In this document: positions 4,576 to 22,320 of the stretch, in pieces
Position numbering within the stretch: position 1 is the stretch's first letter
Layout: every line of letters begins with the position of its first letter
Virus record (IMG/VR): IMGVR_UViG_3300025418_000289
Coordinates: 1 to 24,531 of that record
Direction: 5' to 3' (one strand)
Length of the DNA: 24,531 nucleotides
DNA from: a virus
Translations under genes and position numbers: made by a program
Notes under the pieces: model-generated
Database searches by the model: none
Told to the model about the DNA's origin: nothing
Seen by the model: only the letters and a program-made list of their open reading frames with translations

Positions 4576-5616
4576 TTAGTCTCCAGTGTGTGAAAACATG
4601 CCACGTTTAGTCATGTTTGCAATAGTTGCATCAATTTGCTCTTTTGTATATGGGCTAGTTGCAGGAGTGTTAGTCTGCATGTTTTGATAACTTTGCGGAT
4701 TATTCATCGTCGCAGTATTTGGATTTCTGTTATCATAAATAGGAGGCTGTCCTCTATATACAGGTTGAGTATATTGATTTTGCATCTTTTGTATTTGTTG
4801 CATGTACTGATTTTTTAATTGCAATGCTCCAGCTGGATCAGTTTTAGATTGATTAATAATCGCTTGCTGAATTGATGGAGGAAGCGCTGGACTAATTAAA
4901 TTTCCAGTTGATGAGCCGTCGGCCATGTGCTTAATATGTCCGCCGGCTTTAGCTTTTTTTGATGCGTGGCCACCTTTTTTAAAGTAGTCAGAAGCTTTAG
5001 CTTTAGCACCTGCAGATTCTGCATCAGCTTTTTTATCGCCTGTTGGTGGAACTTTAACAATCTTGTCTTCATCACCAGCTGGTTTTGAACCTTCAAATTC
5101 TACATCAGAACCTGCTGAGTATTTACCAATCTTGCCGCCTTTTTTAGCTTCTACTTTCTTTTCTGTGGATGGTTCTGTTGATGGTTCTACGTGTTCTACT
5201 TTACCACCTTTTTTATATTTACCACCGCTGCACATTGCCTTGCCGCCTTTTTTCATAGCAGCAGATTTAGCGTCAGCTTTCTTGGTACCAGTAGCTTTAA
5301 TTTTTTTGATTTCATCTAAATCGCCAGATTTTTTGTGCATCTCGATTGCACCGCCAGCTTTGTATTTTTTAACTGTGCCTTCTTTTTTCTTATCACGGCC
5401 ACCTTTTTTGAGCTTGATTTCTGTTGGCTCTTTTTTGTGTTCAGCTTCGTCGTGTTGTTTGAATGCTTTTTTGATTAGAGCTTTATCTTGGGCAATGTCA
5501 CCACCTTCTTTGTGATGTTTAGCTTTGCCGCCCTTTTTCATGATATTGATGTGACCGCCCTCTTTGTAGCATGGCATGTCAGATTTCATTTTTGTATTAC
5601 TTTTGAATCCGTCCAT
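4576..5616 (-). CDS. Lysine/glycine-repeat (KGG) protein of unknown function
   Basis: A 346-residue protein in two halves. Residues 15-230 contain about eleven copies of a K-(K/E/A)-G-G motif (for example near 18, 27, 36, 70, 86, 122, 135, 159, 213 and 223), spaced irregularly and separated by Lys/Ala/Asp/Glu-rich linkers. Two linkers look duplicated: IKATGTKKADAKSA at about 106 and VPPTGDKKADAESA at about 190. Residues 235-346 are a Gln/Asn/Pro/Tyr-rich, probably unstructured tail with a short helix ending SPYTKEQIDATIANMTKRG. No signal peptide or membrane segment is visible. Similar KGG-rich proteins occur in uncultured aquatic phages, but no function is established that I know of. DNA compaction inside the head, or ejection with the genome, would fit the charge; both are guesses. 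An AGGA lies before the ATG. Confidence 0.72.
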   Translation of the reverse strand: MDGFKSNTKMKSDMPCYKEGGHINIMKKGGKAKHHKEGGDIAQDKALIKKAFKQHDEAEHKKEPTEIKLKKGGRDKKKEGTVKKYKAGGAIEMHKKSGDLDEIKKIKATGTKKADAKSAAMKKGGKAMCSGGKYKKGGKVEHVEPSTEPSTEKKVEAKKGGKIGKYSAGSDVEFEGSKPAGDEDKIVKVPPTGDKKADAESAGAKAKASDYFKKGGHASKKAKAGGHIKHMADGSSTGNLISPALPPSIQQAIINQSKTDPAGALQLKNQYMQQIQKMQNQYTQPVYRGQPPIYDNRNPNTATMNNPQSYQNMQTNTPATSPYTKEQIDATIANMTKRGMFSHTGD

Positions 5617-5671: not shown

Positions 5672-6214
5672 CTAATGCACAAAAGCCACTTTTTTCGCCC
5701 CATGGAGGAATAATTCGCGTTCCCTGTAACGTCTAGCTTCTAGTATGGCAGGCTTATTCCAAAGTAACATGGCATCAGCCGCACCATGGAAATTGTGGTT
5801 TCTGATGTTTCTAATAACCGTTGATTTTTTAAAGTTGTCAACGCCAATATTAAAGCAAAAACTTAAGAGTGCCTCGTATTGGTATGTAGTTAATTCGTAG
5901 GGTGACGTCTCCTCCACTGCAGTGCTACAGGACTTTATATCCTGCCTAAAAAGCTGTAATACCTCAGCATCCGTGAGCGTCTTATGTTTAAGGTGATCTT
6001 CATCTTTTTTAATGAGGTGACCAATACCAATGGTTAATTTACCCTGACTGTCTCGGTAGGCTTCATTTCTAAAGCCTTCCTCTTTTGATAATAGAATAAC
6101 CTGATTGGCTACCTTTGAAAGATCCATTTCCAACTTGGTATGGTTCACTTGCTCCGTATTGCACGTGATCGAAAAAAGTGTGAGCAATCCTGCAAGTATA
6201 AATACTTTGTTCAT
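5672..6214 (-). CDS. Second GH24 lysozyme, with N-terminal signal or membrane anchor
   Basis: A 180-residue phage-type lysozyme (muramidase, glycoside hydrolase family 24) that would cut the NAM-NAG bond of peptidoglycan. The catalytic triad is visible with family spacing: E46 in KEEGF, D55 in YRDSQG, and T61 in LTIGIGH. The C-terminal helices (LLSFCFNIGVDNFKKST, WNKPAILEARRYRERELF) match the family. Unlike the neighbouring endolysin it begins MNKVFILAGLLTLFSITCNTE, a hydrophobic export signal. Cys18 could suggest a lipoprotein, but the residues before it (SIT) are a poor lipobox, and there is no obvious Gly/Ala-rich SAR pattern. AAAGGA precedes the ATG. It may reach the periplasm by Sec independently of the holin, or act in the particle or at entry. 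Enzyme class is confident; mode of delivery is inferred. Confidence 0.85.
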   Translation of the reverse strand: MNKVFILAGLLTLFSITCNTEQVNHTKLEMDLSKVANQVILLSKEEGFRNEAYRDSQGKLTIGIGHLIKKDEDHLKHKTLTDAEVLQLFRQDIKSCSTAVEETSPYELTTYQYEALLSFCFNIGVDNFKKSTVIRNIRNHNFHGAADAMLLWNKPAILEARRYRERELFLHGAKKVAFVH

Positions 6215-6322: not shown

Positions 6323-6769
6323 TTAACCTCCTAAGAACAGTTGTTTTTCGTCATTTCGACGGGTGACGAGACCCTTGATGATTTTACCACCAGCCCTGAC
6401 GTACTTCGTGAATTCCTCCGCAGCGCCCTTTTTATCATTTCTAAGGATCTTTTGACGGAGGGTTGATCGCTGTAGTACCCCAAGACCAAGATTGAAGCTA
6501 AAACTAATAAGAGCATCAAATTCGCCTTGTGTAAGTTGCACAGGACAGAACTTTGACACTCCCTGCTCAAATCGAGCCAAATCTTTTCGAAGAATCCCAT
6601 CTACTTCCTCCATAGTGAAAACTTTATTCCATTCTGGCGGTAGGGATTTACCATCACCAATAAGGTGTCCTACGCCAACAGTCCAAAGTTTAACACAATC
6701 TTGGTACGGTTTCAAGCGTACACCTTCGTGATGTTTAATTAATGCTATACCTTTGTCAGATATCTGCAT
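6323..6769 (-). CDS. Endolysin, GH24 (T4-type) lysozyme
   Basis: A 148-residue muramidase without signal peptide, the usual length for a cytoplasmic phage endolysin that waits for the holin. The active-site residues are E15 (KHHEGVRLKPYQD), D24 and T30 (WTVGVGH), with the same E-8-D-5-T spacing as the second lysozyme. The C-terminal lobe has FDALISFSFNLG and the RRNDEKQLFLGG ending found in the family. The ATG overlaps the holin stop (TAATG), so holin and endolysin are probably translated together. The 3' end contains AGGAGG, which doubles as the ribosome binding site of the tiny downstream frame. Function is confident. Confidence 0.92.
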   Translation of the reverse strand: MQISDKGIALIKHHEGVRLKPYQDCVKLWTVGVGHLIGDGKSLPPEWNKVFTMEEVDGILRKDLARFEQGVSKFCPVQLTQGEFDALISFSFNLGLGVLQRSTLRQKILRNDKKGAAEEFTKYVRAGGKIIKGLVTRRNDEKQLFLGG

Positions 6770-7655: not shown

Positions 7656-8652
7656 ATGCTTGTTCCTGTGTTAAGTTGATATATTCTTGAATTTGTTGTT
7701 GCTGCATATTGTAGCCAGCATTTAGTAATTGCATACTCATGACTACACCGAAACCTGGAACGATTTCTTTACCTTTGGGTATGCTAGTTTTCGCCTCTGT
7801 CTTGTTGGTTTCCGAGCTTCCTGTAGAGTTGCTCGTATTGCTCGATGCTGTCCCAGAGGTGACGTCTGACTTTTGTGTAGTCCCACTTTGGCTTGTTGTT
7901 GTTGTCGTTGTGTCTACCAATGGGGTATTCGCAATAACAGGGTTTTGTTGAACATCCACAGGTGGGGCAATCTGTGTTGTCGAATTCATTTGTTTGCTGA
8001 TCACCGAGTTTGGATTCGTCGGGCTGATCGGTGACACTGGGCTTGTCGGATTGTTTAGATTCGTGACCGACATGACGCATGTATTCGAAGTCGTAACCCA
8101 ATCCGACCATATTGGCGTGGAATATGGATCCGAACAAGTCGATGATCTGTTTTGTAGTATGCTTCCAATATACCCAGATTGACACGATAATGTCTGTGTC
8201 TGAGTTGATGGTTTGCATGTTGCTGGATCCGGTGTGCATGAATTGGTTGTAGTGATCCACGCTCCCGGGACGGGTTGACCATAGGGATCTGGACAACTCG
8301 TTGTTGTTTGTTGGGTTATCTGTCCTGAAAAATGGGTCGGACAACTTAGACTCCTTGCTGAAACGCTTGTCTGACAGCTCGGTGGAAGCGGCGTGCAGTT
8401 GTTCGAAGTTGTTTGCCATGGGCTCCAAGTTTGCGTCGAACAGAAGTAAGTCCTACTTTGATTGATAGCACCAGTTTGATGCGCACCACATTGAAGTGTT
8501 TGAAATTCAACTGATGATGTGCATGGCGGTGGTATATAACAAACGGGATGGCCGTAAAATTGAGCCAGTTGATTACACCAGTCCGTAAATCCATCAGCAC
8601 TCGCACTACTCCTTGAGAGGAGGAATAGCAGGAATATTATAGTCCTCGCCAT
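7519..8652 (-). CDS. Secreted protein with three cysteine-rich repeats
   Basis: The start chosen is ATG at 8652, giving 377 residues beginning MARTIIFLLFLLSRSSASADG, a clean signal peptide with probable cleavage after ASA (residue 19). An upstream ATG at 8709 would bury the signal and is rejected. Residues 44-192 hold three repeats of about 45 residues, each with four cysteines (44-86, 93-139, 146-192) and the pattern C-x(10)-C-x(15)-C then W-x-x-W or W-I and TTSN-x-C, loosely like thrombospondin type 1 repeats. Residues 200-295 are Ser/Thr/Asn/Pro-rich linker. The C-terminal part has a Met/Gln-rich helix (GFGVVMSMQLLNAGYN) and ends DNPLQRSGFGD. Disulfides would form in the periplasm. It overlaps 47 bases of the gene before it and 137 of the gene after. 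Function is not known; cell-surface binding or superinfection exclusion is possible. Confidence 0.65.
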   Translation of the reverse strand: MARTIIFLLFLLSRSSASADGFTDWCNQLAQFYGHPVCYIPPPCTSSVEFQTLQCGAHQTGAINQSRTYFCSTQTWSPWQTTSNNCTPLPPSCQTSVSARSLSCPTHFSGQITQQTTTSCPDPYGQPVPGAWITTTNSCTPDPATCKPSTQTQTLSCQSGYIGSILQNRSSTCSDPYSTPIWSDWVTTSNTCVMSVTNLNNPTSPVSPISPTNPNSVISKQMNSTTQIAPPVDVQQNPVIANTPLVDTTTTTTSQSGTTQKSDVTSGTASSNTSNSTGSSETNKTEAKTSIPKGKEIVPGFGVVMSMQLLNAGYNMQQQQIQEYINLTQEQAYGREQDILLNFITSDDIGINFNSIANYRWRSLLGDNPLQRSGFGD

Positions 8653-9061
8653 AGAGCTTTTTAAATCTTTCAGGGTAACGTTTAAACCAAGCTTTCTTTG
8701 CTGCATCACCGACTGCTCCGCCTAATGGACATGGACTGCCTGACATCTCCATCGCGTCCCATACTTTTGGATCTTGACAGAGCACTGAAACTGCCGCCAC
8801 TTTAAGACCTAAGTCATTGAGTGTTTTAGCTAGTTTGATTTTTACGCAATTATCATCAAGAAGTACAGTACCGCCAGAGAGAGATAGTACGCCAATGTTC
8901 CCAGCCCCAGAGACGGGTACTGCGCAAACATCTTGGCTAAAAGCAGACATAGAGGGAGCCATGGCACTAGATACAGGCATGCCTTTGTTTTGAATAACAG
9001 TAGTATCTGCATAAGCTATCCCAAACCATAAACAAAGAATCGTACCTAAAATACGTTTCAT
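8606..9061 (-). CDS. Small exported protein of unknown function
   Basis: A 151-residue protein with a typical Sec signal, MKRILGTILCLWFGIAYADTT, cut most likely after AYA (residue 18). The mature part has a conserved-looking MPVSSAMAPSMSAFSQDVC segment, then CVKIKLAKTLNDLG and VSVLCQDPKVWDAMEMSG. Four cysteines in the mature chain suggest two disulfides in the periplasm. The C-terminus is a charged helix ending PAIPPLKE. Its ATG follows the stop of the 73-residue membrane protein without a gap (TAAATG). I recall similar proteins in other uncultured aquatic phages but no assigned activity. With the next gene it forms a pair of exported proteins in the lysis cassette, so envelope modification or exclusion of other phages are reasonable but unproven ideas. 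Confidence 0.72.
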   Translation of the reverse strand: MKRILGTILCLWFGIAYADTTVIQNKGMPVSSAMAPSMSAFSQDVCAVPVSGAGNIGVLSLSGGTVLLDDNCVKIKLAKTLNDLGLKVAAVSVLCQDPKVWDAMEMSGSPCPLGGAVGDAAKKAWFKRYPERFKKLYGEDYNIPAIPPLKE

Positions 9062-9283
9062 TTATTTGTCTGCCTTGTCATCTAATTTTTCAAAAATACG
9101 GTCTAGCATGTTTTTGATTTCGTCAATGTCGCGACGATAATCATCTTTAGTTACGTATGAAAGTGGCATCTCTGCTATTTTATCTTCAAGACGTAAGATA
9201 GATCTTGACATACTATTCAATACCCAAGCGCCAAAGAAACCAATAAGTCCTAAGGCAATATTAATAAGGGTTTGGGTATCCAT
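9062..9283 (-). CDS. Small single-span membrane protein with coiled-coil tail
   Basis: The product has 73 residues. Residues 4-24 (LINIALGLIGFFGAWVLNSM) form one membrane helix. The rest is a charged helix with heptad spacing, containing YVTKDDYRRDIDEIKNMLD and ending KLDDKADK. Short proteins of this shape are common next to phage lysis genes and are usually left unnamed. The start overlaps the stop of the gene before it (TAATG) and the stop abuts the exported protein gene, so it belongs to the same transcript. It could be a holin-like or antiholin-like partner of the 3-TM holin, or a membrane tether. No catalytic residues are visible. Confidence 0.72.
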   Translation of the reverse strand: MDTQTLINIALGLIGFFGAWVLNSMSRSILRLEDKIAEMPLSYVTKDDYRRDIDEIKNMLDRIFEKLDDKADK

Positions 9284-9462
9284 TATTTTTTCTTTAAACC
9301 TTTCAGCGTTTGAGCCAATCTTGCACGTTGACCAGTCACGCCAGATTTTTTAGCAGCGGATGCTAATTTACCAGCGGGGATCTTTTCACTTTTTTTAACA
9401 CCAAGAGACTCTTTAAGTGCGCCAGGTTTTTTAATTGCTTTTTGAATCCACTTTTCTGCCAT
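9283..9462 (-). CDS. Small basic conserved phage protein
   Basis: A 59-residue protein reading MAEKWIQKAIKKPGAL at the start and ARLAQTLKGLKKK at the end. It is very lysine-rich, with the pattern WIQKAIKKPGALKESLGV followed by KIPAGKLASAAKKSG, a layout I recognise from short uncharacterised proteins in many phages. AGGA lies about 9 bases before the ATG. Its TAA shares a base with the next ATG, and it starts 2 bases after the previous stop, so it fits the gene row precisely. No cysteine, signal or membrane segment is present. A DNA- or RNA-binding or virion-internal role would fit the charge; none is established. Confidence 0.8.
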   Translation of the reverse strand: MAEKWIQKAIKKPGALKESLGVKKSEKIPAGKLASAAKKSGVTGQRARLAQTLKGLKKK

Positions 9463-9464
9463 GA

Positions 9465-9695
9465 TTATTGTCCTTGATTTGGTGATAAGCTAGATGGTTG
9501 TGAAATTGCTGGAGCTTCAGCTGGAACAGCAGCTTCTTCAACTACAGGTGCTGGAGCAGGTGCTGCTTTCTTGTGTGCTAATTTACCGATAAGGTTTTCT
9601 ACACCGTGAATAACAATTCTTACATAGCTTACTAATGTTTTAACTACTGCGAGTAAAGCTTTAACTACATTCCATAAGTCTTTAATTAATTGCAT
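9465..9695 (-). CDS. Short amphipathic-helix protein with Ala/Pro-rich tail
   Basis: The product has 76 residues. Residues 1-40 (beginning MQLIKDLWNVVKALLAVVKT) form one long hydrophobic or amphipathic helix, too charged for a clear membrane span but likely to lie on a membrane. Residues 41-76 are an AKKAAPAPAPVVEE-type low-complexity tail ending in Ser/Pro/Gln. A strong AAAGGAG is placed 6 bases before the ATG, so it is well translated. It heads the row of small envelope proteins. It is not recognised; a pinholin-like or membrane-associated accessory protein is one possibility. Confidence 0.68.
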   Translation of the reverse strand: MQLIKDLWNVVKALLAVVKTLVSYVRIVIHGVENLIGKLAHKKAAPAPAPVVEEAAVPAEAPAISQPSSLSPNQGQ

Positions 9696-9712
9696 TTAAA
9701 TCTCCTTTATTG

Positions 9713-10591
9713 TTAATCTAATACTACTTTTAAGTCATTTATAAACTTAATACCGTCAATTAAATATTTTGATGTTATATTATTTTTAATATCTACTACA
9801 ATAATGTAACAACTTTGATCTTTGGTATTGGTTTTAAAATTAACTGAACAACCTATAATAATTTTGTCATCATAGACGTCCAATCCTCTTAAAAAAGTAC
9901 TTGAACTATCAACTAACTTAAATGGTTTTGATACATTAGTATTTAAGTCAATCATTAGTATTTCGCCGGTGCCTGTTGATAGGGTGTACAAATAGTTATC
10001 CACTACTCTAATCCCATGGCAACACTTGCCAGCTCTTGCCACTAACTTGATGTCGAATGTGTTGACCTTGTCAAAGTATCCAAAATCAGACTCGACAAAA
10101 TTTTTATTATGACGACAGAAATAAATTTTATCGCCTGCATCAAACAACGAGTTAAGGTGCCTTGAATCTAACTGATCCGCGTTAAGGGGCTGCAGATGAA
10201 TATCTACACGGTTCAGAAGATTAACGTTTATATATTTGTTAATTTTATTTTTTACATCATGAATGCCAATAGTATCTATGGCAGTATGACATACGTAAAA
10301 TGTATCTTGATCTTTTACAATCTGGTGGGTATTAATCACCATAGGTATGGAGATAAGACCCTTAAATTCATAGGAAGTTTTATCAAACTTACCCAGTTTA
10401 TCATTAGACGCAATGTAGATATACTGATCGTCTACATCTACACCAAAGGGGCGGTATGTGGGCCTTCCTTTGCCTTGTAGATTGGGTGAATCTAATTCTT
10501 TTGTTTTTGAATGACGGTGCGTGATCGTGTTTGAATTAAGGTCAAATACTACGAAATCATGCTCTTCTGTTGTAATCAGGAGTCTTGTCAT
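9713..10591 (-). CDS. Six-bladed beta-propeller protein
   Basis: The product has 292 residues. A repeated unit of two or three strands is visible about six times: RPFGVDVDDQYIYIASNDKL (about 46), HQIVKDQDTFYVCH (about 88), RHLNSLFDAGDKIYFCRH (about 142), CCHGIRVVDNYLYTLSTGTG (about 189), LRGLDVYDDKIIIGCS (about 234) and FINDLKVV at the end. This is the pattern of NHL/SMP-30-like or DUF4915-like beta-propellers, which bind ligands or act as lactonases or glycosyl-enzyme partners. No signal peptide is present. Its ATG overlaps the stop of the oxygenase gene (ATGA), with GGAG 8 bases upstream, so the two are co-translated. The GC and codon style look more AT-rich and less repetitive than the fibre genes, as expected for an acquired accessory gene. 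Fold is confident, activity unknown. Confidence 0.72.
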   Translation of the reverse strand: MTRLLITTEEHDFVVFDLNSNTITHRHSKTKELDSPNLQGKGRPTYRPFGVDVDDQYIYIASNDKLGKFDKTSYEFKGLISIPMVINTHQIVKDQDTFYVCHTAIDTIGIHDVKNKINKYINVNLLNRVDIHLQPLNADQLDSRHLNSLFDAGDKIYFCRHNKNFVESDFGYFDKVNTFDIKLVARAGKCCHGIRVVDNYLYTLSTGTGEILMIDLNTNVSKPFKLVDSSSTFLRGLDVYDDKIIIGCSVNFKTNTKDQSCYIIVVDIKNNITSKYLIDGIKFINDLKVVLD

Positions 10592-11133
10592 ACGTCAAGC
10601 TCCAATATAAAATTAATCACTACGCGTCTTTTGTGCTGCGTTGGCACAGATGATCTGTGCGTTTGCTTTGAATTAATCACGACACAGTTACCCTTTTTAG
10701 GTGATGATGTAAAAAGAACTGTCTTTTTATCATCATCGTAAACTGTCGTATCACCATCGGAATCCGTGACGTAATACACAAAGCTTACAAAGTTGCCTGG
10801 GTTTGTGATATCCATATCAGTATGGATTAAATTATCTAGCGACTCAGGTGTGTGTGCTATGTTGGGTATTAAGTTACCTTTAATTCTTACTACACGCTTT
10901 ACTTTAATGCCTGTGCGTTCTACAAAGTAGCCGATTATCATATTGACTAAATTGTAGTGTGCCGACCACACTTTTTTGTTTAAGAAAAATACGTGGGTCA
11001 TTTGGAATATGTCTTTGTCCGGTTTCATTGGGACAATATTTTCTGAGTTCCAGTACCATGGAAACCCAGTGGACGTCATAAGTTTATGTACCTCATCTTC
11101 TAAAGATTGAGGTAACAGCTTTTCAATAATCAT
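10588..11133 (-). CDS. 2OG-Fe(II) oxygenase
   Basis: A 181-residue member of the 2-oxoglutarate/Fe(II)-dependent dioxygenase superfamily. The iron-binding HxD motif is H104-T-D106 in NLIHTDMDI, the distal histidine is H159 in KQTHRSS, and R169 or R170 in KRRVVINF is the expected 2-oxoglutarate-binding arginine. SPKKGNCVVINSKQTH matches the strand-turn before the distal histidine, and TDSDGDTTVYD matches the edge strand with a GDT motif. Length is that of the small phage members. The enzymes hydroxylate proteins, nucleotides or small molecules; the substrate here is not visible. No Shine-Dalgarno precedes the ATG, but an extended -10 box lies 6 bases upstream. It overlaps the beta-propeller gene by 4 bases, suggesting they work on the same target. 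Confidence 0.82.
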   Translation of the reverse strand: MIIEKLLPQSLEDEVHKLMTSTGFPWYWNSENIVPMKPDKDIFQMTHVFFLNKKVWSAHYNLVNMIIGYFVERTGIKVKRVVRIKGNLIPNIAHTPESLDNLIHTDMDITNPGNFVSFVYYVTDSDGDTTVYDDDKKTVLFTSSPKKGNCVVINSKQTHRSSVPTQHKRRVVINFILELDV

Positions 11134-11150
11134 ACGATTATTATATCAAA
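11134..11150 (-). promoter_or_regulatory. Extended -10 promoter for the oxygenase/propeller pair
   Basis: On the minus strand the sequence reads TTTGATATAATAATCGTATG. TGATATAAT (11148-11140) is a complete extended -10 element (TGnTATAAT), followed by 6 bases and the ATG at 11133. Transcription would start at or next to the A of the ATG, giving a leaderless message, which agrees with the lack of a Shine-Dalgarno. No good -35 box is seen 17 bases upstream (CAACCA), but extended -10 promoters do not need one. AT-rich sequence alone could produce this by chance. Confidence 0.5.
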
Positions 11151-11153
11151 TAA

Positions 11154-11525
11154 TTAAGAAGATGGTTGAGTTACTTCTACCCATGATGTTGTAGCTTCAT
11201 CCCATGAGTAAACTTTACCGTCTGTTGGATAGTCTACAGGTGCTTTCCATTGAGCAGTAGCTTCGTCTAAAACCCATGAAGCAAAAGGTTGTGGTGGGAT
11301 AAATGCGTCTAGTGTTGCATCATATTTATAGCCAATACCTGCGTAATTCTTGCGGATTTTAGCGTTGTATGATGTTTGTTTCCAAGTGCCGCCAAGAAGG
11401 TTATTACAGAACGCAGCACCAATTGCTTCATTCTCTACACCGTCTTTATCGGCCGTGTCTTGGTTAGCAACTACAATTACTTGAGTTACTATGTTTTCTT
11501 CGTTAATCTGACAAAAGTGCGCCAT
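11154..11525 (-). CDS. Conserved fibre-associated phage protein
   Basis: The product has 123 residues. It opens MAHFCQINEENIVTQVIVV and carries the GGTWKQTSYN then RKNYAGIGYKYD and ALDAFIPPQPFASWVLDEAT patterns, ending in YSWDEATTSWVEV. I recognise this layout from small proteins encoded next to fibre genes in many marine and freshwater phages and cyanophages. It is usually described only as a hypothetical or virion structural protein. Two short tryptophan-containing beta repeats near the C-terminus (SWVLDEATAQW and SWDEATTSWV) suggest a small adhesin-like or tip module. AAAGGAG precedes the ATG. It is separated from the large adhesin only by the HNH gene, so it probably was originally the next gene in the fibre operon. 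The role is inferred from neighbours. Confidence 0.72.
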   Translation of the reverse strand: MAHFCQINEENIVTQVIVVANQDTADKDGVENEAIGAAFCNNLLGGTWKQTSYNAKIRKNYAGIGYKYDATLDAFIPPQPFASWVLDEATAQWKAPVDYPTDGKVYSWDEATTSWVEVTQPSS

Positions 11526-11539
11526 CTATTACTCCTTTA

Positions 11540-12001
11540 TTAAATATGTTTCCAGGTATTGCTACGCCAAATACGATAGATTGTAGATGGAACTACATTA
11601 AATTCTTGGCATAATTTTTTATAACTTTCATTCATTCTATTTTTTATAGAAACTATTTGGTCATTAGTTAATTTATGATGACCTTGCATTTCACCTTTAG
11701 CTTGTCTATTTTTATTTATTTTATCTTTTATATTATCTTGATGAGTTCCATAAAATAAATGTTTAGGATTCACACATAATCGATTATCACAAGTATGACA
11801 TACACACATTCCATCTTGTTTTCCTAAATGTATTTCAGCAGAATATCTATGCGCTTTAGTTTGTTTATTATTATCACTATCCCAAAATTGACCATAACCA
11901 TCTTTGTCTATTCCAGCAATATAGTTCCAACATTCATTATCTAAACGTTTATCTATTTTACTCCAAAATCTTATTAAACTATTTGTCTTTGATCTAGCCA
12001 T
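11540..12001 (-). CDS. HNH homing endonuclease with C-terminal HTH
   Basis: A 153-residue free-standing endonuclease. [16 protein letters not shown] at the N-terminus and [10 protein letters not shown] lead into the HNH core [19 protein letters not shown] (about residues 92-110), with NPKHL supplying the N and second H and paired cysteines for zinc; this is the HNH_3 class. Residues 115-153 hold a DNA-binding tail: [16 protein letters not shown] then a helix-turn-helix-like [17 protein letters not shown], similar to NUMOD-type modules. It sits in a 14-base-flanked slot between the large adhesin and its small partner and is AT-rich relative to them. AAGGTGA, overlapping the adhesin stop, precedes the ATG. 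Such genes spread by cutting intron- or gene-less alleles near their own site. Class is confident; the target site is unknown. Confidence 0.88.
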
Positions 12002-12004
12002 ATA

Positions 12005-15000
12005 TCACCTTGCATTAGAAATTTTTGTAGGATTTTCTGCAAATGCTGCGTAAATGTATGTTGCTCCTGATGAATAGTTTACATCACTACCAGAATCTCT
12101 AATTTTAAATCCATTGCTTACAATATCAATTAAATCACCTCCACTACCTTCTACATTTGTAGAATTAGGAAGTAAATATAAATTAGCAACATTGTAAGGA
12201 CTTCTAGAAGTGTCTAATACTACCCAATTATTACCAGCAACACTTCCTTTAATTAATATATATTTTGGTCTAAATCCACAATATATAAATGGACCATCAG
12301 TAGAAGCATTTGCTGTGTAACTTCCAAAAGCGGAGAAGCCTGGAATAGCTGCCCAGCAATAGGCTACTATAGGACTAGCACTTTGATTTGGATATACACT
12401 AGAACCTAAAGAAAATACAGATGATGTAGGAGATGTATTATTAAATGCTGTAGAGTCTGCTGTATAAGCATTAGTTTGGTTTAAATACATACCACCACCA
12501 TTGCCCATAGACACATGATAAACTTGCCAAGCTCTTGCAGTTCCACCACTTCTTTGTTTAAAGAATATCATGCTTGGCGCAACACCAAGCCCATGTCCTA
12601 CTGTAGCATTAGCACCTGTTCCTGTATAAGTCACTACACTAAACCCAGCAGTTGTGTTTACAGATACAGTAGATGTAATAGAGCCTGAAGTATTAGATGA
12701 TGTTGAACCTTGTCCAGCTTGCCATTGCCAGCCTACATAAGTGGCAGTATTGTTATTATAATTAGTGTCTGTTCCTAATGACCAACCATTGCTATTAAAT
12801 GCTGTTAAACCATTGGTATCTGTTGTTTCTGCACCTGTAGTATCAGATATAAGTGCTTTTGTAACACCTCTAACAGAGTCAGTTAATTTATGATCTGTAG
12901 CTGCACTTCTTGATTTTACCCATACTAAATCAGGTTTAAATCCTGCGGTATTAGTAATAGATTGTGTAGAGCCATTACCTGTATATAGCGTTGCATCCAT
13001 ATACTTATTACCCTGTAATATAGTAGGGGTAGGTAGGTTATATGTGTTTAGTGCTACATAGCCTGTAGGAGGTGTGTAAGAAAATGGTCTTTGTCCAAAG
13101 TTAATAATATTTACTGTGGATGTTGCAGTAGATGAATACGCTGGTTTAAATGTTCCTGATATTCCTGTAAATGCAGTTCCTTGACTTGTGCCATTTTTAT
13201 AAAATGTTAGTGTTCCTCCATCTAAATCTAATGCAACACCAACAATATCACCAGCAGTTTGATAAGTTGCACCATAAGACGTTCCTGTGTTATTGTTATA
13301 TTTTTGACCATTAACACTATAATATCCATAAGATGTAGATGTTTGACCAGGAAACAAAGCATTAGAAATATTATCTGAAGTGGAAATAATGCCATTCATA
13401 TAATCTGCTACTCCTGTTGCATTAACAGTATATTCCCAATACCATTTGCCACTAGACACAGCAAATGATCCAGCAATAGCAGTCCAAGTTGACGCAGTTC
13501 CACTTGTTGATTGTAAATTAGCGGCTAAAGTAGTTACAGTTGAATATTTATCTAAAGGATTAAGTGTGCAGTAATTACCCACAGTCGCACTTGTTAGCGT
13601 AGGAACATCAGTCATAGCATCATAAGTTGTGCCTGCTGTTAAGCTAATGTTGTTAGTTGTCCAATTATTACCGTTAGGTGAACTATCGTAGCCTAATGTT
13701 GTGGTAGATATTGTGTTACCAAATGTTAAGTAGAAACCGTTAGTTCCGTATGTGCCTGTGTATTTAATTGGTTTCCATACTTGATTAGCGTCATTGTTAC
13801 CGAAGTAATATGGTGCTAAGGCTTGGCCATCAATGAAGTTAATGTCAGCCATGTATCCATCAAAATATGTATTAAATGTAGAATTAACAGCAGTAGCACC
13901 TACAGCATGAGGAACTGTATTATTAATTGAATTTACAGAATTTTGTGTTGGATAAGTTGCTGCGGCAAATGAAGTTACTTGATTACCATTAATGTAAAAC
14001 ATAACACGATTAGCTGCAGTTGCTTGTGTAGTATCAACAGCAACAACTATATGATACCAAGCTGAAGGATCACGAAATACTTGAGATGTAACTACATCAA
14101 CAGATGCTGCACCTGCAGTAAAAAACTCTAATTGATCTGATGAATTAAAACGAATAACATCATAAGTAGGTGCTGTTGTTCCTGCACCAAATAAAGTAAA
14201 ATAATTACCTAAAGAACCTCGTTTAACCCATGCACTCCAAGTATAAGTAGTTCTGTTAGATGCTTGAGATGGAGTTCTATTTAAATATGCAGATGCACTT
14301 AATCTAAACCTTAAAGAATTGTTTAGGTTATTAGTAAGTGGTGTTAAAGCACCTGTAGCTGTAAATGTGTGGATAGTATTACCACCTGATGATGTGACTA
14401 GACCACCGTTAAATACTTGTGAGCCAGCGTATGAGATGATAACAATACCTGATCCGCCTGAGCCACCAGCAAAACCAACAGAAGCATTATTACCGCCACC
14501 ACCACCACCACCACCTAAATTAGTTGTGCCTGAAACTCCATTAGCATTAGTTCCTCCGTTACCACCACCATAAGTAGCAGTTCCACCAGAGCCTGAATTT
14601 TGTGCATTACCACCACCACCTCCACCTGCATAGTTTACAGATACTCCAGTTATTGAAGATGCTACTCCTGTTCCTCCAGCACCTCCAGACAAACTTACAC
14701 CTATAGCTCCTGCGCCACCTGCACCACCACCACCACCTGATTGATTATTTGTTGATGTTGCACCTGCATATCCTTGACCGCTAGTTCCTGAACCACCTGT
14801 ATTGTTGCTATTACCACCACCACCGCCACCTCCTGAACCACCAGATGTAGCAGCTGTATTATATGCGCCTCCACCACCGCCACCTGTTGAAGTAAGCGTA
14901 GTTAGACCTGTGCCTGATATAACTGAATTTCCTCCAGCAGAACCAGAAACACCTGCACTTGTTCCGCCTGTTCCACCTGCACCTACAGTTACTACATAAG

Positions 15001-16003
15001 TAGCACCTGAATATAAAGTTGTAGATGATGTTAAAAGACCACCAGCACCTCCACCGCCAGCCTGATTAAATCCACCACCACCACCACCAGCTACGACTAA
15101 ATAACTAGCTGTTACAGGTGTAAGAGGGCTTAATGTGCCTGAAGATGTGAATGTGTGAATTTGGTTACCACCTGAAGTAGTAAGAGTGCCACCTACGAAT
15201 TTAGGTGTAGCAGATGCGTAAGATATGATGACTATGCCTGAACCGCCTGCACCACCACTATTAGCTGCTCCATTATAGCCACCACCACCGCCACCACCGC
15301 CAAGATTTGTTGTTCCTGCTACACCTGTTGCTGTTGAACCATTTCCTCCACCGCCAGAACCACCTGTTCCAGCAGTTGTTCCTCTAGTATCAGCGCCACC
15401 GCCACCACCACCAGCGTATGTTACGGATGAGCCACTAATAGATGAAGAAGAGCCTGCTCCTCCGTTACCTGCAGCTGAAGATGTTGCATTTGCTCCTACA
15501 GCACTAGCACCACCTCCACCACCACCAGCAGCACTAACACTTACTGTAGTAAATCCTTGACCACCATTGTTACCTTGACCACTTGTCCCTGTTCCACCTG
15601 CAAGGCCTGCTCCGCTAGTTGTAAATCCACCGCCTCCGCCTGAACCACCATTAGAGCCAATTCCTGTTGATCCTGTAGTAGAACCTCCTCCACCACCGCC
15701 TCCTATGGAAGTAACTGTTGTTAATCCTGTGCCTGATATAACTGAATTTGAACCATTTGCACCTGTTGTATTTGATACTGCTGCGCCACCACTACCAACT
15801 GTAACTGTATATGTAACAAGTGTGGATAATGTTGTAGATGAAGTTTGATACCCACCAGCACCACCACCGCCAGCATCATAGCCTGAACCGCCACCGCCAC
15901 CGCCAGCTACAACTAAAAAGTTTGCAGATACATTATTTTTGTTAGACGATAAGAATCCATAAGCTCTAGATGCTTCTACCGCTAATCGTGATAGTAATGA
16001 CAT
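12005..16003 (-). CDS. Large adhesin: glycine-rich domains, LamG, SPRY and DUF7483-like parts
   Basis: A 1332-residue tail adhesin with several recognisable parts. Residues 1-27 form a short helical attachment region. Residues 29-294 and 300-556 are two copies of a glycine-rich domain, each starting FLVVAGGGGGG or YLVVAGGGGGG and ending GGSGIVIISYA followed by IHTFT; long Gly runs suggest a polyglycine-sandwich fold. Residues 560-735 form a LamG/concanavalin-like lectin domain (TYTWSAWVKRG, WYHIVVAVD, YFDGYMADINFIDGQAL). Residues 850-975 form a SPRY-like domain (GKWYWEYTV, GDIVGVALDLDGGTLTFYKNG). Residues 1002-1330 hold tandem units with GFKPDLVWVKSRS, GVAPSMIFFKQRS and FRPKYILIKGS, like DUF7483. 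All parts are surface-binding folds, so this is the likely receptor-binding protein. Receptor identity is not visible. Confidence 0.8.
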   Translation of the reverse strand: MSLLSRLAVEASRAYGFLSSNKNNVSANFLVVAGGGGGGSGYDAGGGGAGGYQTSSTTLSTLVTYTVTVGSGGAAVSNTTGANGSNSVISGTGLTTVTSIGGGGGGGSTTGSTGIGSNGGSGGGGGFTTSGAGLAGGTGTSGQGNNGGQGFTTVSVSAAGGGGGGASAVGANATSSAAGNGGAGSSSSISGSSVTYAGGGGGGADTRGTTAGTGGSGGGGNGSTATGVAGTTNLGGGGGGGGYNGAANSGGAGGSGIVIISYASATPKFVGGTLTTSGGNQIHTFTSSGTLSPLTPVTASYLVVAGGGGGGFNQAGGGGAGGLLTSSTTLYSGATYVVTVGAGGTGGTSAGVSGSAGGNSVISGTGLTTLTSTGGGGGGAYNTAATSGGSGGGGGGGNSNNTGGSGTSGQGYAGATSTNNQSGGGGGAGGAGAIGVSLSGGAGGTGVASSITGVSVNYAGGGGGGNAQNSGSGGTATYGGGNGGTNANGVSGTTNLGGGGGGGGNNASVGFAGGSGGSGIVIISYAGSQVFNGGLVTSSGGNTIHTFTATGALTPLTNNLNNSLRFRLSASAYLNRTPSQASNRTTYTWSAWVKRGSLGNYFTLFGAGTTAPTYDVIRFNSSDQLEFFTAGAASVDVVTSQVFRDPSAWYHIVVAVDTTQATAANRVMFYINGNQVTSFAAATYPTQNSVNSINNTVPHAVGATAVNSTFNTYFDGYMADINFIDGQALAPYYFGNNDANQVWKPIKYTGTYGTNGFYLTFGNTISTTTLGYDSSPNGNNWTTNNISLTAGTTYDAMTDVPTLTSATVGNYCTLNPLDKYSTVTTLAANLQSTSGTASTWTAIAGSFAVSSGKWYWEYTVNATGVADYMNGIISTSDNISNALFPGQTSTSYGYYSVNGQKYNNNTGTSYGATYQTAGDIVGVALDLDGGTLTFYKNGTSQGTAFTGISGTFKPAYSSTATSTVNIINFGQRPFSYTPPTGYVALNTYNLPTPTILQGNKYMDATLYTGNGSTQSITNTAGFKPDLVWVKSRSAATDHKLTDSVRGVTKALISDTTGAETTDTNGLTAFNSNGWSLGTDTNYNNNTATYVGWQWQAGQGSTSSNTSGSITSTVSVNTTAGFSVVTYTGTGANATVGHGLGVAPSMIFFKQRSGGTARAWQVYHVSMGNGGGMYLNQTNAYTADSTAFNNTSPTSSVFSLGSSVYPNQSASPIVAYCWAAIPGFSAFGSYTANASTDGPFIYCGFRPKYILIKGSVAGNNWVVLDTSRSPYNVANLYLLPNSTNVEGSGGDLIDIVSNGFKIRDSGSDVNYSSGATYIYAAFAENPTKISNAR
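14336..15919 (-). repeat. Duplicated glycine-rich domain inside the adhesin gene
   Basis: Two successive copies (15919-15122 and 15106-14336) encode the same about 260-residue glycine-rich domain. Both keep the order LVVAGGGGGG, TSSTTL, VISGTGLTT, TTNLGGGGGGGG, GGSGIVIISYA, then a TSSGGN/IHTF strand. On the plus strand this shows as dense CCACCACC runs. It is an in-frame tandem duplication with divergence, likely kept by recombination, and not a mobile element. Confidence 0.8.
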
Positions 16004-16834: not shown

Positions 16835-19800
16835 TTAAAATGTTCCACCTTTAATACCGCCAGTGATAGTTCCGTTTGTGGCATTGTAAGTAAATGACGT
16901 GGTTGTGTTAAGTGCTATGTTTCCTGTTGCTGATGATGCGTAGATAATATAATTTGTAGCTCCAGATCCTGCAGTTGATACTATTGTAGAAGCATTTACA
17001 TTAGACCATGTTGGTACACCATTACCAGATGATGTTAATACTTGGCCAGAGGTACCGTAGTTGGTTGTGCCTGTACCTAATACCCATGCACCTGTTGTGG
17101 TAATTTGTTTTTGTTGGGTATTATTGGTGTAAAAACTTAATGGTAAATATGTACCTGTACCATTGATACCTGATACTAATTGAACATCAGTGCTTGTTGC
17201 CGCAATTAAAATCTTAGATGCATTGGTAGGATCAGCAGCATTTGCAGCTTGCCACGATGCTTGTTGTCCTGATACTGTGCCGTTAGGTAATGCATAAATA
17301 CCTGTTGCACTATTTACTGTGTTTGTTACAAATGCAAGTCTAGTACTAATTGTAGCATTACTAAAATCTCCAGTAAATCTTGCACTTGTACCCGTACCAC
17401 CTAAACTAAATGTTGTACCATTGTATGTTAAATTAGCACTTGAACTAAGTGCTGATGTACCATTACCATAAGGTATGTAGTTAGCAGTTAATGATGTTAA
17501 TCCAGTACCACCCGCTGCAACTGGTAATGTACCAGCAGTGAGTGCAGATGATGATGTTGAATAGATTGCATTATTTGCTGCAGTAAATGTTGTAAGTCCA
17601 GTACCGCCGTAGCCTGTACCAAGTGTTCCACCTAAAGTAATTGCGCCTGTGGTTGCTGTGTTTGGAGTTAATCCAGTTGATCCTGCACTAAATGATGTAA
17701 CGCCACCAACGGTGTTAGCGTTTACCCAGACTGGTGCACCAGTACCTCCTGATGTGAGTACCTGACCACTTGTGCCTGCTGCTAATAATGTAATAGCTGA
17801 CGCATTGGAGTATGCAATGCCTCCCGCTGTGGCTGTCAATGCAGCGCCAGTGCCACCATAATTTAATCCAATCACATTGCCATTCCATGTGCCGTTTGTG
17901 TAACTGCCAGCCCATGATAGTGTGTTTGTAGACCAGCTTGCGTTAGATGGTGGTGAATTATGATAATCCCATGAACCTGCTGCATTTGAATTGCTTAATA
18001 AAACTAGAGTAATATAAGACCCTGATTGAATAGTTGCAATTGTTGTAGATGAATTATTTTGAATAACAATCGTGCCTGATGATTGATTGTTATTAAATGT
18101 AAATGTTGCGCCATTAGGTAATGTGGTTGCATCAGGTAATTTAATAGTTTGACCACCTGATCCAGTAATAGCATAATTTTGTACTGTGCTTGCAGTTAAT
18201 ACAATCGTTGTTCCTGAAGCAGCTTGGTTAACATATCCTTCAAATAAACAGTTTGTGGTAATGTTTCCATTTGCATCTCTCAATACGACAGAGTTAGCGC
18301 CACTTGATGTTGTAACTCCTGTTCCTCCACTTGATACACCCAAAGTACCTGATAAAGTAATAGCACCAGTGGTTGAAGTACTTGGTGATAATCCACTTAA
18401 ACTTGTTTGAAATGATGTTACACCACCTGCAGATCCATTAGATGCAGCAGTGATTCGACCTTGTGCATCAACCGTTAAGTTTGCATTTGTGTATGATCCG
18501 GCCGTAACTGCAGTATTAGCTAAAGCAATTGTAACTGGAGATGAGCCATTGAAACTTGTGCCACTGAGTCCTGTACCAATGGTTAATGTACTAGTCGTGT
18601 TTGCTGTAATGGTACCACTACCACCTAAACTGATAGATGTACCATTTACTGTAATAGAACTGTTTGCTAATTGAGCATTGGTGATAGTGCCACTTAATGC
18701 TGTTGTAGGAATAGTAGTTGATGCGGTAACTGCTGATGTATTGTTTGCATACATATAACCTGTGAGGCCTGTTACAGTAATAGTATTAAATGCTTCTGAA
18801 GGAGATCCTAATAATTTTTCCCAAACAGTTCCATTAAATAATGCCCAGTCACCCACTGACCATAAATTAACACCATTTAAGTTTGTTGTACCTGCTACAG
18901 ATACAACATAGTAGTTACCTTGAGTACCTACGCTTGATGTAAGTGTTGGTGTATTTGTTGATGCATTCCATGTGCCTGAATATCCTAAACCTGTACCTGG
19001 AGCACCTTGCGGAATACCAAAATTAAACACTGCTGTCGTTGAATTACCACTATTATTTACGGTTGCATTTGAACCATATGATAATGTAGTTGTATTCCCA
19101 ACTGTTACATTGGTATATGGGCCTGCAGGAATAGTGAAGTTTAATACGGCTGCTGATGAATTACCACTATTAGTAACAGATGCATTTGAATTTGCAACGC
19201 CGGTTGTTGTTGTACCTACTGTTATAGTGGCTGCATTACCTTGTGGTCCTATTATACCTTGAGGAATACCGAAGTTAAATACTGCTGCGGATGAATTACC
19301 ACTATTTGTTACAGTGGCATTTGATCCTGGTGAAAGTGTTGTTGTAGTACCAACGGTAATGGTTGCAGCATTACCTTGTGGTCCAATATTACCTGTAGCG
19401 CCTTGTGGAATACTGAAATTTAAAACGGTAGCATATGCGTTACCACTATTGGTAACTGATGCATTAGATCCTGGAGATAATGTAGTTGTTGTTCCAACAT
19501 TAACGGTTGGGCTACCAGGAACAAAGAAATTAAGGAGAGCTACGGATGAGTTACCGGAGTTGGTAACGTTTGCTGGTGTGCCTGGAGATAATGTAGTGGT
19601 TGAGTTAACATAAACTGCTGCAGCATTACCCTGTGGGCCTGTGTTACCAGTCGCGCCTTGAGGAATACCAAAGTTAAATACTGCTGCGGATGAATTACCA
19701 CTATTTGTTACAGTGGCATTTGATCCTGGTGAAAGTGTTGATGTTGTGCCGACAGAAATAGTTGCAGCATTACCAGATGGGCCTGCGTTACCTGTTGGAA

Positions 19801-20119
19801 TACCAAAATTTAAAACAACGTTTGATGAATTACCAGAATTGGTAACTGTAGCATTAGCACCTGGTGTTAATGTTGTTGTGGTGCCAACGGTTACATTTGC
19901 AGCAACACGACCTACATCTTGTGTTGATCCATCGCTATAATTGAAGAATAAATCACCACTTGATAAAATATTTGCATTGGTAATAAGTTTACCAGGAGAT
20001 ACCGCGTTAGCAATCTGTGATACAGATGCTTGTTTTGTAACGCCTTGTTGAACAACTACCGTGAGTTCCGATCCTGTAATACTGGAGGCGACTGGTAGTT
20101 GCGATATCGGTTGATCCAT
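16835..20119 (-). CDS. Large repeat tail fibre with short collagen-like linkers
   Basis: A 1094-residue fibre. Residues 1-75 form a probable attachment head (QPISQLPVASSITGSELTVV, then FNYSDGSTQDVGR). Residues 77-372 are seven tandem repeats of about 33-48 residues, each with VGTTTTLSPGSNATVTNSGN and a VLNFGIP strand. Several are joined by collagen-like linkers such as GATGNTGPQGNAA. Residues 380-436 hold a YSGTWNASTN / GDWALFNGTVWEKL module seen in many phage fibres. Residues 567-601 and 807-841 repeat a VTSF.AG..GL(T/S)P...TGAI block with GGTG turns. TSGQVLTS-x-G-x-G-x-P-x-W occurs at 783 and 1023. The end, GGIKGGTF, resembles that of the 432-residue fibre. Beta-helical trimers are expected. 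No enzymatic domain or obvious chaperone is visible. Confidence 0.8.
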   Translation of the reverse strand: MDQPISQLPVASSITGSELTVVVQQGVTKQASVSQIANAVSPGKLITNANILSSGDLFFNYSDGSTQDVGRVAANVTVGTTTTLTPGANATVTNSGNSSNVVLNFGIPTGNAGPSGNAATISVGTTSTLSPGSNATVTNSGNSSAAVFNFGIPQGATGNTGPQGNAAAVYVNSTTTLSPGTPANVTNSGNSSVALLNFFVPGSPTVNVGTTTTLSPGSNASVTNSGNAYATVLNFSIPQGATGNIGPQGNAATITVGTTTTLSPGSNATVTNSGNSSAAVFNFGIPQGIIGPQGNAATITVGTTTTGVANSNASVTNSGNSSAAVLNFTIPAGPYTNVTVGNTTTLSYGSNATVNNSGNSTTAVFNFGIPQGAPGTGLGYSGTWNASTNTPTLTSSVGTQGNYYVVSVAGTTNLNGVNLWSVGDWALFNGTVWEKLLGSPSEAFNTITVTGLTGYMYANNTSAVTASTTIPTTALSGTITNAQLANSSITVNGTSISLGGSGTITANTTSTLTIGTGLSGTSFNGSSPVTIALANTAVTAGSYTNANLTVDAQGRITAASNGSAGGVTSFQTSLSGLSPSTSTTGAITLSGTLGVSSGGTGVTTSSGANSVVLRDANGNITTNCLFEGYVNQAASGTTIVLTASTVQNYAITGSGGQTIKLPDATTLPNGATFTFNNNQSSGTIVIQNNSSTTIATIQSGSYITLVLLSNSNAAGSWDYHNSPPSNASWSTNTLSWAGSYTNGTWNGNVIGLNYGGTGAALTATAGGIAYSNASAITLLAAGTSGQVLTSGGTGAPVWVNANTVGGVTSFSAGSTGLTPNTATTGAITLGGTLGTGYGGTGLTTFTAANNAIYSTSSSALTAGTLPVAAGGTGLTSLTANYIPYGNGTSALSSSANLTYNGTTFSLGGTGTSARFTGDFSNATISTRLAFVTNTVNSATGIYALPNGTVSGQQASWQAANAADPTNASKILIAATSTDVQLVSGINGTGTYLPLSFYTNNTQQKQITTTGAWVLGTGTTNYGTSGQVLTSSGNGVPTWSNVNASTIVSTAGSGATNYIIYASSATGNIALNTTTSFTYNATNGTITGGIKGGTF
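19004..19891 (-). repeat. Seven in-frame repeats in the fibre gene
   Basis: Seven coding repeats begin near residues 77, 122, 169, 207, 255, 299 and 339 of the fibre. The core (I/V)TVGTTTTLSPGSNATVTNSGNSS is kept, while linkers vary from none to a GATGNTGPQGNAA-type collagen-like stretch. Near-identical DNA blocks around 19270-19330 and 19680-19740 point to recent unequal recombination or gene conversion. Confidence 0.82.
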
Positions 20120-21798: not shown

Positions 21799-22275
21799 CT
21801 AAAATAGGTGCTTGTTTGATTTTTTGACGTTTTCCGTCGCTGGAATGACTCGTATATTGGATGGTACATGCAAACCAGAAACCAGTTTGCCCTGTAAGGG
21901 GATAATGTGGTCGACATGATACTTTTTACCACTTTCTCGAGATAGCATATTGGCCACTGAGTATTTACATTTAATGTTTAACCAATCAGATTCAGTTAAC
22001 CATTTTGGAATTCTATTTAATTTAGCTAATTGACGTTTTCGTGTTCTAGCTAAGTGGCGATCTGGATATTGTTTATCATAAGCATTTAATCTTTTTAATC
22101 CTCTTGCTTTTACATCTGGTTTATTAGACCAATTTCTTTTTAAGATATTTAAACATTCAATACACGTTCTATTGTTTGTTCTTTTTTCTGCAATATGATT
22201 ATTTTTACATGGTAATCCAGTAAAGTATTTTTTTAAATTTTGTTTAAGTGCTTCTTGTCTTGTAATTATTTTCAT
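21799..22275 (-). CDS. HNH homing endonuclease
   Basis: A 158-residue free-standing HNH endonuclease starting at ATG 22275 (MKIITRQEALKQN). A longer frame from TTG at 22293 is rejected because it would begin inside the terminator and has no ribosome site. The N-terminal part has two cysteine pairs, PCKNNH and RTCIECLN, a likely zinc knuckle typical of phage homing enzymes. A basic region (residues 45-90) follows. The HNH motif is YHVDHIIPLQGKLVSGLHVP and NIRVIPATENVKKSN, with DH, the central Asn and the later His/Asn in place. It is AT-rich and lies between the capsid gene terminator and the next structural gene. No Shine-Dalgarno is visible; a TATAAT lies 6 bases before the ATG. Class is confident. 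Confidence 0.88.
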   Translation of the reverse strand: MKIITRQEALKQNLKKYFTGLPCKNNHIAEKRTNNRTCIECLNILKRNWSNKPDVKARGLKRLNAYDKQYPDRHLARTRKRQLAKLNRIPKWLTESDWLNIKCKYSVANMLSRESGKKYHVDHIIPLQGKLVSGLHVPSNIRVIPATENVKKSNKHLF

Positions 22276-22281
22276 ATTGAT

Positions 22282-22289
22282 ATTATATA
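22282..22289 (-). promoter_or_regulatory. Candidate -10 box for the HNH gene
   Basis: The minus strand reads GTTATATAATATCAATATG. TATAAT (22287-22282) is a perfect -10, 6 bases before the ATG at 22275. The best -35 candidate, TGTAAA (22310-22305), is weak and lies in the terminator loop. The spacing equals that before the oxygenase gene, and both genes lack a Shine-Dalgarno, so a leaderless start is proposed. AT-rich DNA makes a chance match possible. Confidence 0.38.
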
Positions 22290-22291
22290 AC

Positions 22292-22320
22292 AAAAAAGCC
22301 AGTTTTTACACTGGCTTTTT
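22292..22320 (-). terminator. Rho-independent terminator after the major capsid gene
   Basis: An 11-bp perfect stem (AAAAAGCCAGT, 22320-22310, pairing with ACTGGCTTTTT, 22303-22293) with a 6-base loop, followed on the minus strand by a run of six T. It begins 18 bases after the capsid stop. A second small hairpin (AATCAT/ATGATT with a 4-base loop, 22324-22339) covers the capsid stop codon. The pair would end most transcripts and protect the 3' end of capsid mRNA, so capsid protein is made in excess over the genes beyond. Confidence 0.88.

Follow-up and report, generated by a model that had tools for sequence, protein, structure and literature searches.

A gene for a 2OG-Fe(II) oxygenase (OXY) and a gene for a six-bladed beta-propeller (PROP) overlap in an uncultured freshwater phage (IMGVR_UViG_3300025418_000289), and the linkage of the two across phages, their fusion in one protein and the swapping of the partner oxygenase make it likely that they form one joint functional unit. 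The whole stretch of DNA analysed, 24,531 nucleotides long, is called the window hereafter, and its relevant features are as follows.

9713-10591, minus strand: PROP, six-bladed beta-propeller of 292 aa, likely a divergent DUF4915/TIGR03032 relative (model and profile comparison)
10588-10591, minus strand: ATGA start/stop overlap from OXY to PROP, 4 shared bases
10588-11133, minus strand: OXY, 2OG-Fe(II) oxygenase (PF13640) of 181 aa (profile match and invariant motif)
11140-11148, minus strand: extended -10-like TGATATAAT, just 5′ of the OXY start
11154-11525, minus strand: gene upstream of OXY for a small protein (phrog_7759) without known function
12005-16003, minus strand: large fibre of 1332 aa with Gly_rich_2, SPRY and DUF7483, the nearest large candidate substrate
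16835-20119: 1094-aa repeat protein, the other large candidate substrate in the window

OXY matched the PF13640 profile (2OG-FeII_Oxy_3) with 29.2 bits at a curated cut-off of 27 (E = 1.8e-6) and phrog_274 with E = 3e-28. The iron triad (H104-x-D106 and H159) and the 2OG-binding R170 did not vary across an alignment of 12 sequences that reached down to 26% identity. By family and motif OXY is a 2OG-Fe(II) oxygenase; Fe/2OG-dependent oxidation itself is inferred. A double-stranded beta-helix fold was predicted by a confident model of the 44% identical OXY homologue in contig L063, not of the window OXY alone, and this domain matched a predicted viral Fe/2OG dioxygenase (A0A6J5L635) over nearly its full length with a TMt of 0.98. 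No credible relative of OXY was found among solved structures by sequence search. The label of phrog_274, T4-type DNA endonuclease V, was rejected for OXY, as the pyrimidine-dimer glycosylase/endonuclease domain was not found: a Pfam search at E ≤ 0.5 detected no endonuclease domain, PF13640 being the sole match. Cyanophage genes annotated as “DNA endonuclease V”, such as PSSM2_324 of P-SSM2 (L078:5989-6522), are members of the OXY family of 2OG-Fe(II) oxygenases, and their label is probably a misannotation.

The AlphaFold2 model of PROP, made with 20 phage homologues, had a pLDDT of 92.2 and a pTM of 0.90. The main strands of the model group in fours to make six blades, the first of which is closed velcro-fashion by the last strand (284-290), thus PROP is a six-bladed propeller. 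Fold comparison placed YWTD/LDLR-type propellers on top (Z about 26, rmsd 2.4-2.5 over about 243 residues) with designed propellers also among the matches, a generic likeness of fold that gives no functional clue, and sequence search revealed no credible relative among solved structures. The DUF4915 profile (PF16261) was matched with 35.0 bits at a cut-off of 35, in a single stretch (190-270), and the score fell below the cut-off in whole-genome mode. Filing PROP as TIGR03032 was rejected, since its 30.9 bits lie far under the curated 251.5-bit cut-off of that family. Aligned by hhalign, the PROP family and bacterial (Loktanella) TIGR03032 matched with E = 2e-6 over 215 columns (probability 89%), while phage PROP and bacterial TIGR03032 proteins share 16-20% identity. 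Most probably PROP is very distantly related to DUF4915/TIGR03032, a bacterial family without known function.

In a joint alignment of 14 sequences (5 phage and 9 bacterial proteins), the residues G50, H89, T103, D142, H145, N147, H192, L204, G207, F233, R235, G236, L237, S249 and D286 were invariant. By the strands of the model, H89, H145, H192, R235 and D286 fall on the innermost strand of a blade or immediately ahead of it, from one blade to the next, and R47 and N147 (beside H145) are also among the conserved inner-strand residues. The model predicts that H89, H145, N147, H192 and R235 cluster at the propeller mouth, which was read from secondary structure and not from coordinates. The retention of His, Arg and Asp residues across such divergence may point to a ligand, metal or catalytic site in PROP.

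PROP was searched for without any requirement for an oxygenase, and the widest scan comprised 39 viral contigs, two of which (L035 and L074) begin inside PROP and were left out of the linkage count. A 2OG oxygenase was encoded directly upstream of PROP or one gene away in all 37 contigs with upstream sequence. In 24 contigs (21 close relatives, L071, L072 and L073) PROP overlaps an OXY-family or PF13640 gene by 4 bases, in L034 and L068 the two genes are 5-6 bases apart, while in L036, L066, L070 and L075 one small gene (about 380 bases) lies between them. In L036 this gene is a homologue of the small phrog_7759 gene upstream of OXY, and a homologue is also found beside oxygenases in L054; in L066, L070 and L075 a small gene occupies a similar place. 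Other oxygenase families were the partners of PROP relatives with 30-42% identity: a DUF6445 oxygenase-like protein overlaps PROP in L064, L065, L067 and L069, and a different PF13640 protein does so in L037 and L038. As the family of the partner oxygenase varies, the propeller is the constant part of the pair.

Since the 21 close relatives share one phage lineage and several contigs are duplicates at the oxygenase (L065 of L064, L072 of L071, and L038 of L037), the 37 contigs correspond to about ten independent cases of linkage. PF13640 genes were scarce in eight PROP phage contigs of 16-66 kb, occurring once in seven and twice in one of them, thus the linkage is not a by-product of oxygenase-rich genomes. 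The single PF13640 gene was the partner of PROP in six of the seven contigs, and in G005 it was another oxygenase a few genes off. A tblastn search of 50,697 phage records with the window PROP, L064, L073, the L063 fusion and bacterial TIGR03032 gave no PROP match, only oxygenase matches, and PROP matched no PHROG.

In L063 (4410-5861) a single 483-aa ORF contains both an OXY domain and a PROP domain, separated by a linker of about 16 residues, and carries H104, D106, H159 and R170 at the same positions as OXY. The model of this fusion had a pLDDT of 89.6 and a pTM of 0.71, with both domains confident and their mutual orientation unresolved. The halves matched, among predicted viral proteins, a phage propeller (A0A6J5L568) and the above A0A6J5L635, which is annotated as “prolyl 4-hydroxylase alpha subunit Fe(2+) 2OG dioxygenase”; the next matches were cyanophage proteins labelled DNA endonuclease V.

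Two alternatives can be judged at this point. That OXY and PROP are functionally independent and were joined by hitchhiking would be supported by the fact that most close contigs come from related phages, so the synteny is partly inherited. However, the linkage spans different oxygenase families and phage types and is accompanied by a fusion, by which this explanation can practically be ruled out. According to the other, OXY serves general metabolism or DNA repair, and the propeller gene is next to it by chance. The roles proposed for cyanophage 2OG oxygenases are 2OG drawdown and DNA repair (PMC3037559), and the “DNA endonuclease V” label of the cyanophage OXY family speaks for this possibility; nevertheless, the lack of any Pfam match of OXY other than PF13640, the universal adjacency and the one fusion make it highly improbable. 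The original prediction, made from the sequence alone, had described an HxD...H...R oxygenase overlapping a six-bladed propeller gene by ATGA, and both parts were confirmed by the coordinates, the PF13640 match, the invariant residues and the model with six four-stranded blades. It had also named two results that would refute a joint system: the genes being rarely neighbours elsewhere, a test passed by the 37 of 37 contigs with an oxygenase near PROP, and a missing iron/2OG pocket, a test passed by the invariant residues and the confidently modelled oxygenase domain of the fusion, without coordinates of the pocket itself.

The ATGA junction of OXY and PROP was retained throughout the close relatives, and translational coupling of OXY to PROP via this overlap is likely. 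The dN/dS values (0.07-0.18 for OXY and PROP) indicated purifying selection on both genes. Gaps of only 17 and 20 bases divide the pair from its neighbours on this strand, and it is not a separately punctuated unit. The extended -10 box claimed before the first ATG is present in letters, and its reading as a promoter failed: exact matches of TGATATAAT occurred once in the window versus 2.4 expected from shuffles of the window, and the box was not retained in the relatives L014 and L008. Being not above chance and not conserved, it carries no weight, and a promoter before OXY was rejected.

Holin-like and lysozyme genes are found near OXY-PROP and likewise in the unrelated L071, thus the locus is where fibre and lysis genes meet and not a metabolic island. 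Several other features of the surroundings were recorded. Two lysozyme-type endolysins, about 31% identical, are encoded side by side (5672-6214 and 6323-6769), the first of which starts with a signal-like hydrophobic stretch, and the 346-aa protein encoded at 4576-5616 is rich in KKGG repeats and has a conserved position in related phages. The HNH endonuclease gene beside the fibre (11540-12001) has no counterpart at this position in L004, a near-identical contig, and an ORF that looks HNH-like by eye lies next to the capsid gene (21799-22293). A 66-kb contig nearly identical to the window (L164) contains a cluster of GT2 glycosyltransferase, O-methyltransferase-like and Anp1-like genes (8279-10349), which could possibly act on a hydroxylated product.

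The PROP family scan of bacterial genome contigs gave no match, and the bacterial relatives (L082-L161 and L165-L176) were found via plasmids. A giant surface protein adjoins the TIGR03032 gene or is one gene off in 12 of the 13 readable plasmid loci, the sole exception being Qingshengfaniella; a further Nostoc locus, cut by the record end, was excluded. The surface proteins were of FG-GAP, cadherin-like, Ig-like, VCBS, choice-of-anchor Q, IPTL-CTERM and autotransporter types. A long ORF rich in Gly, Ser, Thr, Asn, Ala and Val was present within about 6 kb in 39 of 58 other long chromosomal or contig loci, counted by our own composition criterion without a random control. DUF4915 is fused to TPR and GT41 in Acaryochloris, to GNAT domains in Gloeothece and Nostoc, and to TPR and a GT9-like stretch in Synechocystis. 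In Diaphorobacter, the TIGR03032 gene overlaps by 4 bases (ATGA) a gene for a fusion of sulfotransferase with Asp/Asn beta-hydroxylase, itself a 2OG oxygenase. A 2OG-FeII_Oxy_5 gene (Pfam) is the convergent neighbour of TIGR03032 in L142, and L161 has a homologous ORF. Giant secreted or autotransporter neighbours of TIGR03032 often carry “(G/S)YGRxAY(A/G)” near the N-terminus; a strict pattern found it in 15 of 80 loci. The true adenylylsulfate kinase gene cysC adjoins TIGR03032 in Nostoc (L165:5826-6332), and APS-kinase-like P-loop genes directly follow PROP in three phage contigs (L064:5897-6304, L071:3592-3990, and L073:5300-6106); a link of the propeller to sulfation is one possible hint from these genes.

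We propose that OXY-PROP is a protein-modification cassette of the fibre/lysis operon acting on a large virion protein, a model that in our view could as well prove wrong as right, its substrate and chemistry being inferred. OXY would hydroxylate residues of a large virion protein of the same late operon, probably of the tail fibre whose gene lies immediately upstream. PROP would dock on OXY and the substrate and present the latter, docking being proposed because the two are fused in L063, and/or the His/Arg pocket at its centre would take the hydroxylated residue through a second step. The phage would probably profit through fibre maturation, stability or altered receptor binding. The target, predicted originally as a “virion, sugar or host molecule”, was narrowed to most likely a large fibre/virion protein because of the genomic context and the bacterial relatives, which is an inference. 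The Gly_rich_2 domain was present in 4 of 10 PROP phages and no single fibre type was constant; a Gly-rich fibre as universal substrate was rejected, since the domain is absent from most PROP phages tested, thus a different conserved part of the fibre may be the target. The coupling of DUF4915 to a hydroxylase–sulfotransferase, its fusions to GT41 and GNAT and its place beside giant surface proteins support a modification role. Against the model as a whole, no substrate, reaction or OXY-PROP complex has been shown, the adjacency to the fibre might merely mark a hot-spot of accessory genes, the pTM of the fusion is only 0.71, so domain docking is unresolved, and PROP is just 16-20% identical to TIGR03032, whose own function is unknown.

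Two further explanations concern the substrate and the role of the propeller. OXY-PROP could possibly modify a host surface glycan or other small molecule, for example in superinfection exclusion, in which case the propeller would serve as a lyase, as a hydrolase or in sugar binding. Sugars are frequent targets of propellers, the 66-kb phage nearly identical to the window has GT2 glycosyltransferase, O-methyltransferase-like and Anp1-like proteins, and APS-kinase-like genes follow PROP in L064, L071 and L073. However, these sugar genes are elsewhere in the 66-kb genome whereas the cassette is in the fibre/lysis block, and the bacterial DUF4915 relatives adjoin giant surface proteins. Alternatively, PROP might itself be built into the virion, for instance as a protein of the fibre tip, and be modified by OXY. 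The fibre neighbourhood, the overlapping genes and the propeller-like folds among predicted phage structural proteins favour this reading, but it appears unlikely, as the bacterial relatives are fused to enzyme domains, the L063 PROP belongs to the oxygenase polypeptide, and the conserved residues are at the propeller mouth, not on the outer face.

The cassette reading has partial counterparts in known systems. DUF4915/TIGR03032 (PF16261) is a homologous propeller with H89, H145, N147, H192, R235, G236 and D286 common to both, but the N-terminal extension and family-specific stretches of the bacterial proteins are missing from PROP. The phrog_274/cyanophage 2OG-Fe(II) oxygenases are of the same family as OXY, and in Sf-CH1b and HTVC008M they are encoded within baseplate regions or close by; unlike in the window phage, no PROP was found in the cultured phages searched. 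The Diaphorobacter locus shares with OXY-PROP the 4-base overlap of a 2OG oxygenase gene and a DUF4915 gene beside a large surface protein (IPTL-CTERM), but has another oxygenase family, a sulfotransferase domain and a bacterial plasmid as its carrier. In peptidylglycine alpha-amidating monooxygenase (PAM), too, a hydroxylase is joined with a six-bladed propeller whose pocket contains histidines; OXY-PROP may be likened to it by analogy only, no homology having been shown. PHM uses copper and differs in fold from OXY, and the His geometry of PAL is unlike that of PROP. A PAM-like zinc site in PROP was set aside, as the PROP histidines are on adjacent blades, unlike in PAL.

In the literature searched, no paper mentioning DUF4915 or TIGR03032 and no description of an oxygenase–propeller pairing was found, in agreement with the original statement that the combination could not be tied to a described phage system. 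Cyanophage and pelagiphage genomes contain many 2OG oxygenases whose viral role has not been specifically investigated (PMC9602691), and phage 2OG oxygenases have been treated as uncharacterised or as 2OG-level/DNA-repair genes (PMC3037559, PMC9602691). Each part of the pair belongs to a known broad superfamily, while the pairing and its context are likely undescribed.

A bolder reading, which we consider more apt to fail than to hold, is that DUF4915-type propellers are general companions of enzymes modifying giant surface or fibre proteins in bacteria and phages (2OG hydroxylases, GT41 glycosyltransferases and sulfotransferases), that a catalytic His/Arg pocket would perform the second step, and that the phage pair would be the minimal two-gene form, hydroxylating and further processing tail fibres. 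If true, this would be a tail-fibre modification undescribed for phages in the literature searched. For the DUF4915/TIGR03032 family, the results give a first functional clue, namely that it accompanies giant surface proteins and is fused or coupled to hydroxylase, sulfotransferase, acetyltransferase or glycosyltransferase domains. For one group of phage 2OG oxygenases, the conserved partner and the fusion give a testable role, the propeller-aided modification of a large protein.
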